A DNA stretch of 64,000 bases from Chelativorans sp. Marseille-P2723 (GTDB taxonomy: Bacteria; Pseudomonadota; Alphaproteobacteria; Rhizobiales; Rhizobiaceae): the NCBI RefSeq assembly GCF_902809845.1, contig NZ_CADDWI010000012.1, positions 126,802 to 190,801 on the forward strand. Direction: 5' to 3'. How positions within the stretch are numbered: position 1 is the first letter of the stretch; each line of letters starts with the position of its first letter. Both the position numbers and the translations under genes were made by a program. This document shows positions 706-53,178 of the stretch, piece after piece. The notes under the pieces were generated by a model. The model was not told the DNA's origin. It saw nothing but the letters and a program-made list of their open reading frames with translations, and ran no database searches.

Positions 706-1089
706 GTGGGTGTTGCCGCGACAGAGAGTTGGTTTTCTCTCTCTACGAGGAGGAACCGTAAGAGCTTCATTTTAGCGTCACTGCTTTTGTCAGGAGTAAT
801 GCTCGCGCTTTCGGCCGCGTTGTGGTTCTTTGCTCCGTCGCAGCAGACCGGTACCACGATTTTTCTACTCTTTTTCATCCCCTACCTCATATGCGCCTAT
901 ACGCTATCTGCTCAGCGTCTTAGAGACATGAACCTCAGTGGTTGGCTAGCGCTACTGTGGATCCCGGTCGGTGTTGCTGATGAACAATTCGGAGGGGCTG
1001 CTTCGCTCGCGTTCCTGATTGTGCTATGCGCCATTCCCGGCACCTCCGGGGTAAATCGGTATGGACCGGATCCGCTAACGGGAGAGTAG
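706..1089 (+). CDS. DUF805 family membrane protein
   Basis: The C-terminal part carries the hallmark of DUF805 inner-membrane proteins: AQRLRDMNLSGW followed by a hydrophobic segment and the tail PGTSGVNRYGPDPL. The N-terminal WFSLSTRRNRKSF corresponds to the usual RxxRxxF entry into the first membrane helix; three to four membrane segments follow. The GTG at 706 is preferred to an upstream TTG at 667 because it leaves only a short tail before the conserved region. DUF805 proteins have no established biochemical role. The gene overlaps or abuts the preceding membrane-protein gene and lies in a lower-GC stretch beside tRNA-Ala, compatible with horizontal acquisition. Confidence 0.75.
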   Translation: MGVAATESWFSLSTRRNRKSFILASLLLSGVMLALSAALWFFAPSQQTGTTIFLLFFIPYLICAYTLSAQRLRDMNLSGWLALLWIPVGVADEQFGGAASLAFLIVLCAIPGTSGVNRYGPDPLTGE

Positions 1090-1322
1090 GAGCCAGAGCA
1101 TCTTAACGTTTGCGCCTCCAATTTGTTTGCAGCAGCCGAAAAGATGATGTCGAGAGGCGTTTCGATAAGAGACCCTGGGGTGAGACATGGCTTCTAAAAG
1201 TGCAGGAGCTGGAAAACTCGCACTAGCGACAGGCGAAACATAGAAACTTTGAAGGGGTCAGAACGCGGGGCAGAAGGTCAGAACTGACACTAACTTATTG
1301 ATTTTTATAGTGAATATATACT

Positions 1323-10061: not shown

Positions 10062-10919
10062 ATGCAGGAAGATGCCAGGCGGAAGCTTATCAAGGCCGCA
10101 ATGAAGGCTCCCTATCTGACACGGGAGGAAGAGCATGCTCTTGCGGTCCGATGGAAAGACCATCAGGACCAGGAAGCCCTTCACCGGATGATCATGGCAC
10201 ATATGCGACTCGTCATCGCGATGGCCGCCAAGTTCCGCAACTTCGGCCTGTCGATGAGTGACCTCATCCAGGAGGGGCATGTCGGCCTGCTAGAAGCGGC
10301 GGCGCGTTTTGATCCGGCGCGTGATGTTCGTTTTTCGACCTATGCGACCTGGTGGATCCGAGCTTCCATGCAGGATTATATTCTGCGTAATTGGTCGATC
10401 GTGCGGGGCGGAACGAGCTCTGCGCAGAAGGCGCTCTTTTTCAATCTGCGGCGCTTGCGCAACAAGCTGCAAAAGCCGGGCGAGCCGGTGACTCCCAGCA
10501 AGGAGATCTATCAGGAGGTGGCGCAGGCTCTACGGGTTTCCGAAGCCGATGTAGCGATGATGGATGCGAGGCTTGCCAATTCCGACACCTCGCTCAACGC
10601 ACCGCTTAAGAACGACAACGACCCGACGACGGAGCGCATCGAGTTTCTTGTCTGTAACGCACCTCAACCAGACGAGGTAGCCCGGGAGAGCATCGACGGC
10701 GAGCGTCGCGCGCAGTGGCTGCGACAAGCGCTTGGCACTCTCAACGGCCGTGAACTCACCATCGTGCGAGAAAGGCGGCTTTCCGAGGAGGGCGCCACCC
10801 TCGAATCCCTCGGAGCCACGCTCGGTATCTCCAAGGAGCGGGTGCGCCAGATCGAGTCCAGGGCGCTGGAGAAGCTGCGTATGGCACTGATTAAACGCCA
10901 TCCGGAAGTTGCGGCTTGA
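10062..10919 (+). CDS. rpoH2: RNA polymerase sigma-32 factor, RpoH2 type
   Basis: A 285-residue sigma-70 family protein with the regions in order: 1.2 (LTREEEHALAVRWKD), 2.1-2.4 (HMRLVIAMAAKF…LIQEGHVGLLEAAARFDP, FSTYATWWIRASMQDYILRN), the RpoH box (QKALFFNLRRLRNK, about residues 127-140), region 3 and region 4.2 (TLESLGATLGISKERVRQIE). The ATG at 10062 is used because the longer frame from 9996 adds sequence unlike any sigma factor. The RpoH2 rather than RpoH1 call follows from the carD/fdxA/helicase neighbourhood and the EcfG-type promoter. RpoH2 mediates part of the heat and oxidative stress response in rhizobia. Confidence 0.92.
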   Translation: MQEDARRKLIKAAMKAPYLTREEEHALAVRWKDHQDQEALHRMIMAHMRLVIAMAAKFRNFGLSMSDLIQEGHVGLLEAAARFDPARDVRFSTYATWWIRASMQDYILRNWSIVRGGTSSAQKALFFNLRRLRNKLQKPGEPVTPSKEIYQEVAQALRVSEADVAMMDARLANSDTSLNAPLKNDNDPTTERIEFLVCNAPQPDEVARESIDGERRAQWLRQALGTLNGRELTIVRERRLSEEGATLESLGATLGISKERVRQIESRALEKLRMALIKRHPEVAA

Positions 10920-33067: not shown

Positions 33068-34153
33068 ATGAAGATCGCTCAGATTGCTCCCTTGGCCGAA
33101 AGTGTCCCCCCCCAGCTTTACGGCGGGACTGAGCGGATCGTCTCCTACCTGACGGAAGAACTTGTGCGCCAGGGGCATGACGTGACCCTTTTTGCATCCG
33201 GAGACTCGGTTACTGCTGCCGAGTTGGTTCCCTGCAGCAAAGGCGCTCTTCGCCTCGATCCCGACATTCGCGATCCGCTCCCGTACTATCTCATCCTTCT
33301 TGAAGAGGTGCGCCGCAGAGCCGACGAGTTCGACATTCTGCATTTTCACATCGATCTGTTGCATTTCCCTCTGATCCGCCCCTTCGCACACCGCACGGTG
33401 ACAACCTTGCACGGAAGGCTCGATCTGCCGGACCTTGTCCCTTTTTACCAGGCGTTCCGCGAGATTCCCGTTGTTCCCATTTCGAACGACCAGCGGCGGC
33501 CGCTGCCGATGGCTAACTGGGTGACCACCATCCATCACGGCCTCCCACTCGACGCCCTCCCGTTCAGCCCTTCACCGACGGAAGGCTATCTTGCATTCTT
33601 GGGCAGAATCTCGCCGGAGAAAAGGCCAGACCGTGCGATAGAGATCGCTTCGCGACTTAATATGCCGCTTAAGATAGCGGCGAAGGTTGACCGTGCGGAA
33701 AAGGCTTACTGGGACAATGTTATCGCTCCAATGATCGCTCGAAATCCGAATTTCGAGTATGTAGGCGAGGTGAACGATCGCACGAAGGCCGAGTTCCTGG
33801 GCAACGCCTGCGCCCTTCTCTTCCCCATTGACTGGCCTGAACCGTTCGGCCTCGTGATGATTGAGGCAATGTCCTGCGGCACGCCAGTGATCGCCTTCCG
33901 CCACGGCTCGGTTCCCGAGGTGGTGGATCACGGTGTTTCTGGGTTCATTGTTGACTCAGTTGAGGAGGCTGTTGAGTTCGTGCCAAGGGCCTGCGAGATG
34001 AGTCGGGCCGGTGTACGCCGCCGCTTCGAGGAGCGCTTTACGGTCGACCGCATGGCGACAGATTATGTTGCCGTCTACGAGCGCCTGCTGCATCACCGCT
34101 TGCCCACCGTGCCGTTCCCGGTCGAGGCTACAAGGGCGACCATTATCGGGTGA
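33068..34153 (+). CDS. glycosyltransferase family 4
   Basis: A 361-residue GT-B glycosyltransferase. The N-terminal half begins MKIAQIAPLAESVPPQLYGG with TERIVSYLTEELVRQGHDVTLF and the acceptor-side DILHFHID; the C-terminal half has FLGRISPEKRPD (alpha-phosphate contact) and the E-x7-E signature EPFGLVMIEAMSCGTPVIAF. ATG 33068 is favoured over TTG 33062. The gene is followed 28 bp later by the debranching-type glucosidase gene, a pairing found in many alphaproteobacteria and suggesting a role in making or recycling a glucan or compatible-solute sugar under stress. Confidence 0.88.
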   Translation: MKIAQIAPLAESVPPQLYGGTERIVSYLTEELVRQGHDVTLFASGDSVTAAELVPCSKGALRLDPDIRDPLPYYLILLEEVRRRADEFDILHFHIDLLHFPLIRPFAHRTVTTLHGRLDLPDLVPFYQAFREIPVVPISNDQRRPLPMANWVTTIHHGLPLDALPFSPSPTEGYLAFLGRISPEKRPDRAIEIASRLNMPLKIAAKVDRAEKAYWDNVIAPMIARNPNFEYVGEVNDRTKAEFLGNACALLFPIDWPEPFGLVMIEAMSCGTPVIAFRHGSVPEVVDHGVSGFIVDSVEEAVEFVPRACEMSRAGVRRRFEERFTVDRMATDYVAVYERLLHHRLPTVPFPVEATRATIIG

Positions 34154-34181
34154 CGCGCCGCTATCGCAGGAGGAACGCACG

Positions 34182-36386
34182 ATGACCGAAGGTACGAACC
34201 TCCTTGAGCCGCAACCGGCAGAGTTTGGCACCGCCCGGACGCCGCAATTCTTCATCGCGGCCACGGCTCCCCTTCAGGAGCGGCGGCCTCGCACGCAGAA
34301 ATATGGCGACACATTCTCCATGTTCGACCACAATGGAGATGCGCTTTCAGGCCCTGGAAGTTCCGAGGGCCTCTACCATCGCGATATGCGCCATCTTTCA
34401 CATTTCTACATGACGATCTGCGGAGAGCGGCCGTTGCTTCTCAGCTCCATGCTCCGAGACGACAACGCGCTGCTCGTGTTCGATCTTGCCAATCCAAACC
34501 TTTATGAGAACGGCCAGCTCGTACTTCAGCACGACCTGATCCACATCCGCCGTACACGATTCTTGTGGGATGCCACCTGCTTTGAACGCATCTCGTTGCG
34601 GAATTTTGACGAGGTTTCCCGGAGAGTCACCATCGAGCTTGCTTTCGCCGCCGATTTTGCCGATCTTTTCGAGGTGCGTGGCGCGCGTCGCCCCAGACGC
34701 GGGACCATGCATGTGCCAAAGGTAGAGGGGAACCGCGTCACACTATCCTATACGGGCCTTGATGATGTCGTGCGGCGGACGGTGCTCCGCTTCGACCCGG
34801 CGCCTGTCAAGCTCGACGGCTCCCACGCCACCTGGAAAGTGGACGTCAAGCCGGGCCAATCATGCCAGATCTTCATCGACGTGACCTGCAGCGGGGATGC
34901 GCCCGAGTTTGAACCTCATCGCCAATTCTTTTCGAGCTTGGCGGAAGCCCGCCGCGCAATGCGCAGCCTTTCCGGCGGGGCTGCCTCGGTGACGACATCG
35001 AACGACGTGTTCAATGAAATTGTCCGCCGTTCGGTGGCCGATCTCTACATGCTTGTCACCAGGACGCAGGAGGGCCCCTTTCCGTATGCCGGGATACCCT
35101 GGTTCAGTACCGCATTCGGCCGTGACGCTCTTATCACAGCGATGCAGACGCTGTGGCTAGACCCGGCTATCGCATGCGGCGTTCTCAAACATCTGGCAGC
35201 CAATCAGGCCAAAGAAGAAGACCCCGTGGCGGACGCCGAACCAGGCAAGATCCTGCACGAGCTTCGTTATGGCGAAATGGCCGAGCTCGGCGAAGTACCA
35301 TTCCGCCGCTACTATGGCAGTGTCGACTCCACGCCGCTGTTCGTCATGCTGGCAGGGGCTTACCTGGAACGCACTGGAGATCTGGAAACGATCAAAGGGC
35401 TTTGGCCGAATATCGAGGCTGCCCTTTCCTGGATCTCAGAACATGGCGACCGTGACGGTGACGGTTTCGTGGAATACGGCCGGCGCACGATGGTCGGGCT
35501 TGCCAATCAGGGCTGGAAGGACAGCTACGATGCCATCTTCCATGCCGATGGCAGGCTTGCCATCGGGCCGATTGCCTTGTGCGAGGTCCAGGCCTATGTC
35601 TACGGCGCGCTGAAGGCGGCCGCGTTCATGGCGAGCGTCATGGAAATGCGGGAGCGCTTCTTGGTGCTCGAAATGGCGGCCGAAGAACTGCGCGAAAACT
35701 TCGACAGCACGTTCTTTGACAAAGAACTCGGCACATATGTTCTGGCTCTCGATGGTGAAAAGAAGCCATGCCGTGTTCGCGCGTCGAACGCGGGCCATAC
35801 CCTGTTCACCGGCATCGCCTTTCCCGAGCGCGCCCCTTCCGTCGTCGCCACGCTCATGAACAGCAACTCCTTTTCGGGCTGGGGCATCCGCACCGTCGCA
35901 ACCACGGAAAAGCGCTACAATCCCATGAGCTACCATAATGGTTCCGTTTGGCCGCACGACAACGCGCTGATCGCCGCCGGGTTTGCTCGCTATGGCTTTC
36001 GCGGTGAGGCCGCCCGGGTGTTCGAGGGAGTCGCCATGTCCTCCACCTATATTGACCTGCGCAGGCTGCCAGAGCTCTTTTGCGGTTTCCCACGCCAGCG
36101 CAGCCGCGGCCCCACCTTCTACCCCGTCGCGTGCTCGCCCCAGGCGTGGGCGGCGGTGGCGCCACTCTCGCTTCTCCAATCATGTCTCGGCATGACTTTC
36201 GATTGCACCGAGGGAGCTCTGTTATTCCACCAACCGATGCTGCCTGAATTCCTTGACGAGGTGATGTTGCGGAACATCACCCTGCCGCAGGGCAAGGTGG
36301 ACGTGCTCCTGCGCCGCATAGACACGGAGGTTGTGGTCCAGGTTCTTCAGCGGGTCGGGAACATCCGCGTCACCATGACCCATTAA
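34182..36386 (+). CDS. glycogen debranching enzyme-like (amylo-alpha-1,6-glucosidase type)
   Basis: 734 residues starting MTEGTNLLEPQPAEF, with AGGAGG nine bases before ATG. Residues about 30-240 form the N-terminal 'GDE N bis' beta-sandwich domain (QKYGDTFSMFDHNGDAL, GLYHRDMRHLSHF), and residues about 290-720 form an (alpha/alpha)6 barrel of GH15/GH63/MGH1 type: GPFPYAGIPWFSTAFGRDALITAMQTLWLDP, VEYGRRTMVGLANQGWKDSYDA, YHNGSVWPHDNALIA. Expected to hydrolyse alpha-1,6 or related alpha-glucosidic bonds in the cytoplasm. The longer frame from 34011 overlaps the glycosyltransferase and is rejected. It forms a probable operon with the upstream GT4. Confidence 0.9.
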   Translation: MTEGTNLLEPQPAEFGTARTPQFFIAATAPLQERRPRTQKYGDTFSMFDHNGDALSGPGSSEGLYHRDMRHLSHFYMTICGERPLLLSSMLRDDNALLVFDLANPNLYENGQLVLQHDLIHIRRTRFLWDATCFERISLRNFDEVSRRVTIELAFAADFADLFEVRGARRPRRGTMHVPKVEGNRVTLSYTGLDDVVRRTVLRFDPAPVKLDGSHATWKVDVKPGQSCQIFIDVTCSGDAPEFEPHRQFFSSLAEARRAMRSLSGGAASVTTSNDVFNEIVRRSVADLYMLVTRTQEGPFPYAGIPWFSTAFGRDALITAMQTLWLDPAIACGVLKHLAANQAKEEDPVADAEPGKILHELRYGEMAELGEVPFRRYYGSVDSTPLFVMLAGAYLERTGDLETIKGLWPNIEAALSWISEHGDRDGDGFVEYGRRTMVGLANQGWKDSYDAIFHADGRLAIGPIALCEVQAYVYGALKAAAFMASVMEMRERFLVLEMAAEELRENFDSTFFDKELGTYVLALDGEKKPCRVRASNAGHTLFTGIAFPERAPSVVATLMNSNSFSGWGIRTVATTEKRYNPMSYHNGSVWPHDNALIAAGFARYGFRGEAARVFEGVAMSSTYIDLRRLPELFCGFPRQRSRGPTFYPVACSPQAWAAVAPLSLLQSCLGMTFDCTEGALLFHQPMLPEFLDEVMLRNITLPQGKVDVLLRRIDTEVVVQVLQRVGNIRVTMTH

Positions 36387-36505
36387 GAATGCGTGAAAAT
36401 CCGCGGCTGGCATGGCGACTGGGCGCTCATTGCCGCTTTTCGGGTTTGTGATGTGGAGATTTTCCACAGTGCGACAGAATTGCGCGCCTTTCAGGAGAAG
36501 TTTGC

Positions 36506-36534
36506 CTTTAAACCGCCGGCCTGGTCCCCTATGT
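36506..36534 (+). promoter_or_regulatory. RpoH-like promoter of the small RNA
   Basis: CTTTAA (36506-36511) is separated by 16 bases from CCTATGT (36528-36534). Alphaproteobacterial sigma-32 promoters have a CTTGAA-like -35 and a CCTATnT-like -10 element, so only one -35 base deviates. The predicted start near 36540-36541 puts the first hairpin at the RNA 5' end. Confidence 0.6.
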
Positions 36535-36539
36535 ACACG

Positions 36540-36669
36540 CCAAGTTCTCGACGGGGTCCCCCTCCTCCCATTTCCCCGGCGAGATGCGGCCAGCCTCACC
36601 TCCTCCCGAGTGCTGGCCGATCCTAAAGGCACCCGCCGGTCCTCCTCCCCCGGCGGGTGCTTTTTTTTT
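36540..36669 (+). ncRNA. alpha-r14/NfeR1-like 'cuckoo' small RNA with three anti-SD loops
   Basis: Three consecutive hairpins, each with CCTCCTCCC in its loop. Hairpin 1: CTCGACGGGG (36547-36556) with CCCCGGCGAG (36574-36583), one mismatch, loop motif 36561-36569. Hairpin 2: CGGCCAGC (36587-36594) with GCTGGCCG (36612-36619), perfect, loop motif 36599-36607. Hairpin 3: GCACCCGCCGG (36629-36639) with CCGGCGGGTGC (36650-36660), loop motif 36641-36649, followed by nine Ts, a classical intrinsic terminator. Triple anti-Shine-Dalgarno loops are the hallmark of alpha-r14/NfeR1 RNAs in rhizobia and resemble the CCUCCUCCC-motif RNAs of Rhodobacter. Such RNAs bind ribosome binding sites of many mRNAs, usually repressing uptake transporters. 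It runs towards gapR, nine bases away. Confidence 0.88.
36629..36669 (+). terminator. intrinsic terminator of the small RNA
   Basis: An 11-bp perfect GC-rich stem followed by nine consecutive T residues (36661-36669). On the other strand it lies just past the gapR stop and is preceded by A residues, so it may also serve gapR. Confidence 0.9.
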
Positions 36670-36677
36670 GGCTTCCA

Positions 36678-36941
36678 TTATACCATTCCGAGAGCCTGCT
36701 TGTAGAGCTCGATCATTGCCTCTTCCTCCTGCCGCTCCGCTTGGTCCTTCTTTCTCAGCCGAACGATAGTGCGCACCGCCTTCGTATCGAAGCCGACTCC
36801 CTTCATCTCCGCGTAGACTTCCTTGATGTCTTCGGCGATCGTCTGCTTCTCTTCTTCCAGACGCTCGATACGCTCGATGAAGGCACGGAGCTGCCCTGCT
36901 GCAACGGTTTGCGCGGTCTCGTTGGTGATGTCCTCGGCCAT
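36678..36941 (-). CDS. gapR: GapR-type nucleoid-associated protein (DUF2312)
   Basis: An 87-residue helical protein: [53 protein letters not shown], typical of DUF2312. In Caulobacter crescentus GapR is a nucleoid-associated protein that encircles overtwisted AT-rich DNA ahead of replication and transcription forks and stimulates topoisomerases. The whole family length is present. Start ATG 36941 is preceded by GGAG (CCGGAGAAAATC on the coding strand). Convergent with the small RNA; divergent from cpoB. Confidence 0.92.
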
Positions 36942-53094: not shown

Positions 53095-53178
53095 CCTTTT
53101 CCTCCGTCGTTCGATAATCCCGCCAGTGGGCTACCCCTCCCCACCGAGGGGCGAGCTATCTGGAAGGATAGAAACATT
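53095..53178 (+). ncRNA. candidate serC-motif leader RNA
   Basis: Directly before serC there is a strong hairpin at 53123-53163: CCAG closes with CTGG, GCT with AGC, and an inner CCCCT/AGGGG stem bears the loop CCCCACCG. A conserved 'serC' RNA motif has been described upstream of serC in alphaproteobacteria, and this hairpin is in the right place, ending 15 nt before the start codon. I cannot confirm that it fits the published consensus in detail, so it is a position-based suggestion. Confidence 0.45.

Follow-up and report, generated by a model that had tools for sequence, protein, structure and literature searches.

The described systems closest to the RNA analysed here are NfeR1 of Sinorhizobium meliloti, the CcsR RNAs of Rhodobacter and, in another family, AbcR1 and AbcR2 of rhizobia. 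NfeR1, in the accessible part of the report (PMC10746234), silences its targets through three loops that act on ribosome binding sites, and its target class is the ABC-transporter binding proteins; the gene is sigma-70 driven (RpoD-dependent), activated by LsrB and repressed by NtrC, and its LysR/LsrB site has the form TGCA-N6-GCAT. For the Rhodobacter CcaF1-CcsR operon, RpoH control is described in the available portion of PMC10253847. AbcR1 is described as LsrB-driven, with a LysR/LsrB site GCAT-N3-TG-N3-T, and AbcR2 as RpoH1-driven, and in S. meliloti lsrB is placed next to abcR1/2. The family and its motif, together with the joint function of its three loops and the DUF1127-linked form, are already in print, as far as the accessible text of four reports goes (PMC10746234, PMC7143759, PMC10253847, PMC3927594); what the present analysis would add is one member, with a rearranged setting and a missing activator site.

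The window is a stretch of 64,000 nucleotides from Chelativorans sp. Marseille-P2723 (the source genome), in which a first-pass annotation had proposed a small RNA with three anti-Shine-Dalgarno hairpin loops. We regard this RNA, with a probability of roughly 85%, as a standalone ar14 (cuckoo/NfeR1-type) trans-acting sRNA that would block strong Shine-Dalgarno sites as NfeR1 does.

Identification of an ar14 RNA with three hairpins

The covariance model of the ar14 family (RF02344, NfeR1/"cuckoo") matched the window at 36541-36665 on the forward strand, with 82.5 bits against a gathering score of 58.8, and the match covered the full model (positions 1-123). The window RNA is a further ar14/NfeR1-type member of a known family, as the first-pass annotation had supposed. 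The elements of the RNA are:

36541-36665 (+): ar14 sRNA with three hairpins (RF02344, 82.5 bits; covariation in 14 copies)
36561-36569 (+): anti-Shine-Dalgarno motif, loop 1 (sequence, fold)
36599-36607 (+): anti-Shine-Dalgarno motif, loop 2 (sequence, fold)
36641-36649 (+): anti-Shine-Dalgarno motif, loop 3, within the terminator hairpin (sequence, fold)
36630-36669 (+): intrinsic terminator, the third hairpin plus nine T (fold, sequence)

Fold, loops and terminator were read from the sequence. In the minimum-free-energy fold all three CCTCCTCCC nonamers, starting at 36561, 36599 and 36641 as originally noted, were unpaired in hairpin loops, and CCUCCUCCC was presented unpaired in each of the three. 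The fold energy was -70.4 kcal/mol, compared with -44.3 +/- 3.8 kcal/mol for shuffled sequences (z -6.9), and none of 200 shuffles was as stable. The spaced triple motif occurred a single time in the window and in none of 100 shuffles. Stem lengths, counted on the alignment of 14 copies described below, were 10, 8 and 11 pairs, within the 8-11 bp first reported, with a single A-G mismatch of the window copy in the first stem. Nine T (36661-36669) follow the third hairpin, confirming the nine-T terminator; a simple terminator scan missed it, its loop limit being 8 bases. By analogy with the family, we infer that the window copy is expressed as an RNA of the 115-130 nt size class.

Conservation of the loops and distribution of the family

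A search of 61 genomes gave an ar14 match at E <= 0.01 in 46 and a match over the cut-off in 37. The over-cut-off matches numbered 92, with three perfect nonamers in 54 and TCCTCC at least three times in 87. Ten matches at E <= 10 were found in the source genome, two of them over the cut-off: the window copy and a second copy on contig C8 (locus L001, C8:1192058-1192178, minus strand, 85.6 bits). A search of plasmids returned a single match, weak and partial, in Shinella.

For closer comparison a lineage set was assembled of 14 copies, from 13 genomes of the same genus, which start like the window copy with AAGTTCTCG or close to it. All 14 kept TCCTCC at least three times. Standard pairs filled 97.3% of the 406 alignment cells, a percentage favoured by the structure having been drawn from the window sequence, and in 11 of the 29 stem pairs both partners had been replaced in at least one copy. 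Such double changes occurred in 28 cells, against 8.5 in shuffles and at most 5 in slid versions; a measure of further pair types on the same alignment did not exceed the shuffles (193/500). The three hairpins covary across the lineage. The pattern which the first-pass annotation had named as speaking against a conserved RNA, loss of the loops with the flanking genes kept, came out reversed: across the lineage the loops stay and the flanks change.

Several sub-threshold matches were also recorded. Two-hairpin matches with no T run, which may be coding, were found in the source genome (L003:1501-1588, C8:153753, ar14-like in architecture) and in genome G011 (L306:701-792, 376 bases downstream of a same-strand gapR paralogue). 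At nine loci, from nine genomes of the same genus (L302, L303, L304, L307, L308, L309, L310, L313 and L315) sub-threshold hits lie just downstream of phasin-like genes, with two loops in place of three: a first hairpin with a CTCCTCC-type loop and a terminator hairpin GACCGGG-TCCTCCCC-CCCGGTC. Phasin_2 was confirmed by Pfam at two of the nine (L304, L307), and also beside L093, which is over the ar14 cut-off.

ar14 RNAs in phage contigs

IMG/VR was scanned with the spaced motif, which was present in 73 contigs. Fifty were chosen by fold, namely 45 with at least four loop hits and five others, and RF02344 scored over the cut-off in 47 of these 50 by cmscan (12/12, 14/14, 13/13 and 8/11); the remaining 23, outside the cmscan set, resembled repeats or coding sequence on visual inspection. 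The 45 contigs with at least four loop hits hold 23 distinct stretches. Examples of the RNA are:

L261:5113-5233 (+): phage-contig ar14 RNA
L296:11517-11636 (+): phage-contig ar14 RNA
L250:757-879 (-) and 1035-1157 (-): phage-contig ar14 RNAs

In phage contigs some 60 kb long the RNA sits well within the sequence, for example near 13.4 kb in L229 (59.7 kb) and 50.6 kb in L261 (65.3 kb). Two of the loci, L261 and L296, were read, and in both the RNA faces a convergent helicase gene that resembles one of Rhizobium and Sinorhizobium phages. The named related phage RHph_TM3_3_14B has 87 bases between the helicase gene and the next gene, and the ar14 RNA is absent there. BLAST with one phage-borne RNA against the annotated phage collection gave no match. 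Among the papers listed, none couples a cuckoo RNA with phages in its title or abstract opening, although phage copies may still have been reported elsewhere; where 'cuckoo RNA' and 'phage' are mentioned together, the phage passages, in the excerpts available, concern Hfq. If confirmed, a phage carrying a translation-start blocker made by the host lineage would matter more than the window copy.

Rearranged surroundings of the window copy

The sRNA lies between two genes:

34011-36386 (+): glycogen-debranching-type enzyme gene, upstream neighbour (PF14742/PF06202; longest frame, assumed start)
36678-36941 (-): gapR, convergent neighbour, outside the sRNA unit (PF10073, 117 bits)

Among named records, the nearest to the debranching enzyme are six from Chelativorans, at 76-77% identity. 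In the window, 154 bases separate the end of its gene from the sRNA, and on the right-hand side gapR is convergent, its stop codon 8 bases from the T run; in two genomes of the same genus (G002, G008) the debranching gene ends about 3.1 kb upstream of the sRNA. Similarity of the window to these two genomes starts at 36469/36470 and continues through the terminator, the aligned part consisting of the sRNA and about 70 bases upstream. These limits place the breakpoints just outside the promoter and the terminator. Among the 14 lineage copies, a dehydrogenase-like gene (PF21135, PF03447) adjoins six and alpha-amylase-family genes lie downstream of at least three; in the source genome the dehydrogenase-like gene is elsewhere, at C8:816828. 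A fresh insertion beside gapR was ruled out by the alignment of the sRNA and its upstream bases with the G002 and G008 copies, near the same debranching gene, and by the presence of the lineage's dehydrogenase-like gene at C8:816828.

The convergence with gapR, part of the original description, was correct in orientation and adjacency but proved unconserved. With tblastn, gapR matched only the window's own locus among the 92 ar14 loci (0/91 others), in flanks of about 1.5 kb that were shorter on one side in a few loci (minimum 327 bases, L064); conversely, the triple motif was found in none of 29 other gapR loci. These counts ruled out gapR linkage as a conserved feature, and on the genomes compared the convergence is private to the window copy. 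They also bear on a gapR-linked cis element, in which gapR read-through would make an antisense sponge or the hairpins would end gapR transcripts. The convergent genes and the 8-base gap would suit such an element, but besides the missing linkage the duplexes predicted between the loops and the gapR leader were weak (-9.7 to -12.3 kcal/mol), and we consider it very improbable. By the same energies gapR is a poor predicted target of the sRNA.

Elsewhere in the window, a serC leader RNA was found at 53124-53176 (+) (RF00517, 64.7 bits).

The candidate core promoter and its sigma factor

36506-36534 (+): core promoter candidate CTTTAA-N16-CCTATGT (spacing and -10 kept in 14/14 lineage copies)

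The candidate consists of CTTTAA (36506-36511), a 16-base spacer (36512-36527) and CCTATGT (36528-36534), exactly as first read, and the full string occurs once in the genome. All 14 lineage copies have CTT[TC]AA, 16 bases and [CA][CT]TAT[GC]T, ending 8 bases before the A of AGTTCTCG.

The first-pass annotation had placed the RNA under sigma-32 control. In the parts available, the published consensuses are CTTGAA-N15/16-CCTATAT for RpoH1 and CTTGCC-N15/16-CCTATCT for RpoH2 (PMC4843759), and CTTGAC-N17-CTATAT for RpoD (sigma-70) (PMC8844928). Against these, which may differ from the consensuses of this genome, the window core has 2 mismatches of 13 to RpoH1 and 3 of 12 to sigma-70, and it is the only site in the window, on both strands, with at most two RpoH1 mismatches at N16. 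Across the lineage copies the mismatches amount to 2-4 for RpoH1 and 3-4 for RpoD, RpoH1 fitting better by one in nine copies and equally in five. The last -35 position is A in all 14, and the G of CTTG, common to the RpoH1 and sigma-70 consensuses, is missing in all 14.

Comparison with the consensuses did not separate RpoH from sigma-70. The genome has no exact match to the RpoH1 site (CTTGAA-N15/16-CCTATNT) from which a local RpoH consensus might be taken, and the groES upstream regions were ambiguous and gave no clear yardstick.

Heat-shock (RpoH) control of the window copy is possible on these matches. A core read by RpoH1 or RpoH2 would make the copy a heat- or oxidative-stress regulator, a reading that we hold only tentatively, with the odds somewhat against it. 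The lower mismatch count at the sole such site of the window and the invariant A speak for it, as does the RpoH dependence of AbcR2 and CcsR in relatives, in the text available on them; but the RpoH1 and sigma-70 consensuses match the -10 and -35 nearly equally well, RpoH1 being only one base better, the G of CTTG is missing, the genome offers neither an exact RpoH1 site nor a groES yardstick, and NfeR1 is listed as RpoD-dependent in the accessible part of its report. The Rhodobacter precedent invoked earlier stands as far as RpoH control of CcaF1-CcsR is concerned, but the layout of that operon matches the C8 copy and not the window copy.

The presence of rpoH2 and ftsH in the window had also been cited. 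An RpoH-type sigma gene is indeed present at 10086-10892 (+), with 286 bits to TIGR02392, below the RpoH equivalog cut-off of 323, and ftsH was assigned by reading its translation alone; their location in the same window is no evidence for RpoH control. A second RpoH-type gene (C12:191894-192706, 384 bits to TIGR02392) lies outside the window, some 1.1 kb past its end and about 54 kb from the first.

Apparent loss of an upstream LysR-type site

36477-36495 (+): remnant position of a LysR-type (LsrB-like) dyad, no dyad left (aligned place; approximate, read off the sequence)

Upstream of the core, a TGCA-N9-TGCA dyad was perfect in nine of the 14 lineage copies, at 63 or 64 bases from the A of AGTTCTCG, and had one mismatch in three more; of 1598 background stretches of the window, 1 held a perfect dyad and 23 one within a single mismatch. 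The dyad resembles, in sequence, the LysR/LsrB sites of NfeR1 and AbcR1. Of the 13 other lineage copies, 12 carried it with at most one mismatch; it was weak in L071 (G007) and absent in the window copy, which has TTGCGCGCCTTTCAGGAGA at this place. The window copy seems to have lost an upstream control site kept by its relatives.

Ahead of the C8 copy, TTGCATTGCTGCCATGCAA is followed by CTTCAA-N16-GCTATCT, both upstream of a DUF1127 gene (PF06568, 66.4 bits) whose stop codon lies 5 bases before the sRNA start. This gene is the sole match in the genome at E <= 0.001, and none lies directly upstream of the window copy. A text pattern for DUF1127 marks 24 of the 92 ar14 loci, a count that misses the Pfam-confirmed C8 copy.

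Control in the lineage would combine a weak core with the LysR-type site, presumably LsrB-like. The window copy would have lost the site, probably in the course of the rearrangement that brought this copy between the debranching gene and gapR, and, having lost it, should depend on its core promoter alone, whether sigma-70 or RpoH-like; the second copy, behind the DUF1127 gene, keeps the site.

Such a loss could also mark a copy in decay, silent or nearly so, with the C8 copy doing the work. The missing dyad and rearranged flanks are compatible with decay, as are a score of 82.5 bits, below those of most lineage copies, and the S. meliloti Northern blot, which in the available text showed only one of six NfeR1-type copies. 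We find decay unlikely: the three nonamers are perfect, the terminator is intact, the core promoter unchanged and the stems paired but for one mismatch. Doubtful, and put forward as a speculation, is a rewired pair with the same three-loop blocking part, the DUF1127-linked copy being under a LysR/LsrB-type activator and the window copy left to an RpoH-like core. If true, duplicated cuckoo RNAs would here be in the course of dividing up their inputs, in parallel with the AbcR1 (LsrB)/AbcR2 (RpoH1) split in an unrelated sRNA family.

A LysR-type gene was observed elsewhere on C8:

L225:487-1377 and 1501-1612 (C8:946555-947680): LysR-type regulator gene and sub-threshold ar15 hit

From the end of the LysR-type gene it is 123 bases to the AbcR-like (ar15) hit at C8:947569, which with 33.5 bits stays below the cut-off of 40. 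This is the arrangement of lsrB-abcR in S. meliloti, and the gene is a candidate lsrB.

Predicted targets and mode of action

Returning to the reading as a trans-acting sRNA, the earlier claim of action on ribosome binding sites is supported by family precedent (PMC10746234, as far as its text is available). By analogy, the three loops would pair, with overlapping function, to purine-rich Shine-Dalgarno sites, and pairing would stop translation initiation, mostly on transport-protein mRNAs. That the RNA is a global regulator, as first proposed, is an inference.

Targets were sought by a genome-wide pattern search in place of full target prediction. GGGAGGAGG was found 2-12 bases before ATG 13 times, compared with 6 for the reversed pattern. 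Two of the 13 sites fall at one place, one is opposite the C8 sRNA, and few precede a convincing gene; one, for instance, is 2 bases from the ATG of a 107-residue frame with no Pfam match. One site, GGGAGGAGGAGG, stands at ordinary spacing ahead of a convincing gene, which encodes a solute-binding protein (PF13416; C7:40107). Duplexes of the sRNA loops with this start reached -21.3 to -25.3 kcal/mol, energies that ignore accessibility and are to be set beside the 1% of random 40-mers reaching -20.2 with loop 2 (the pool included both ar14 loci). The gene fits the NfeR1 target class and is a predicted target. At the assumed start codon of ntrB, a validated NfeR1 target, no AGGAGG-like site was found here; its duplexes were -5.9 to -9.4 kcal/mol when only loop bases were allowed, up to -14.9 when stem bases were included and -3.0 with the bare motif.

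Comparison with known systems

Chelativorans is a genus known mainly for chelate and pollutant degraders, and a regulator studied in legume symbionts is here extended to it. The two over-cut-off copies of the source genome differ in one predicted input and offer a simple test of the function of the LysR-type site.

Like NfeR1 (Smr14C2, SmelC397; S. meliloti, alpha-r14, RF02344), the window sRNA has three hairpins with CCUCCUCCC in each loop and appears to be a standalone gene with its own promoter, with a LysR-type site upstream in the lineage. It differs from NfeR1 in its stems, in a -35 without the CTTGAC/CTTAGAC form, in the absence of the LysR-type site from the window copy and in the ntrB pairing, which was not found here.

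The CcaF1-CcsR1-4 operon of R. sphaeroides (CIN1 locus), in the available portion of PMC10253847, is matched by the C8 copy, a CcsR-like sRNA with a DUF1127 gene, whereas the window copy lacks a DUF1127 gene and does not derive from a 3' UTR. With AbcR1/AbcR2 (ar15) of rhizobia, sRNAs described in the accessible excerpts as silencing transport and metabolic mRNAs, the window sRNA shares anti-Shine-Dalgarno motifs, but it belongs to another family, the ar15 hit of the genome being separate and sub-threshold (33.5 vs 40 bits).
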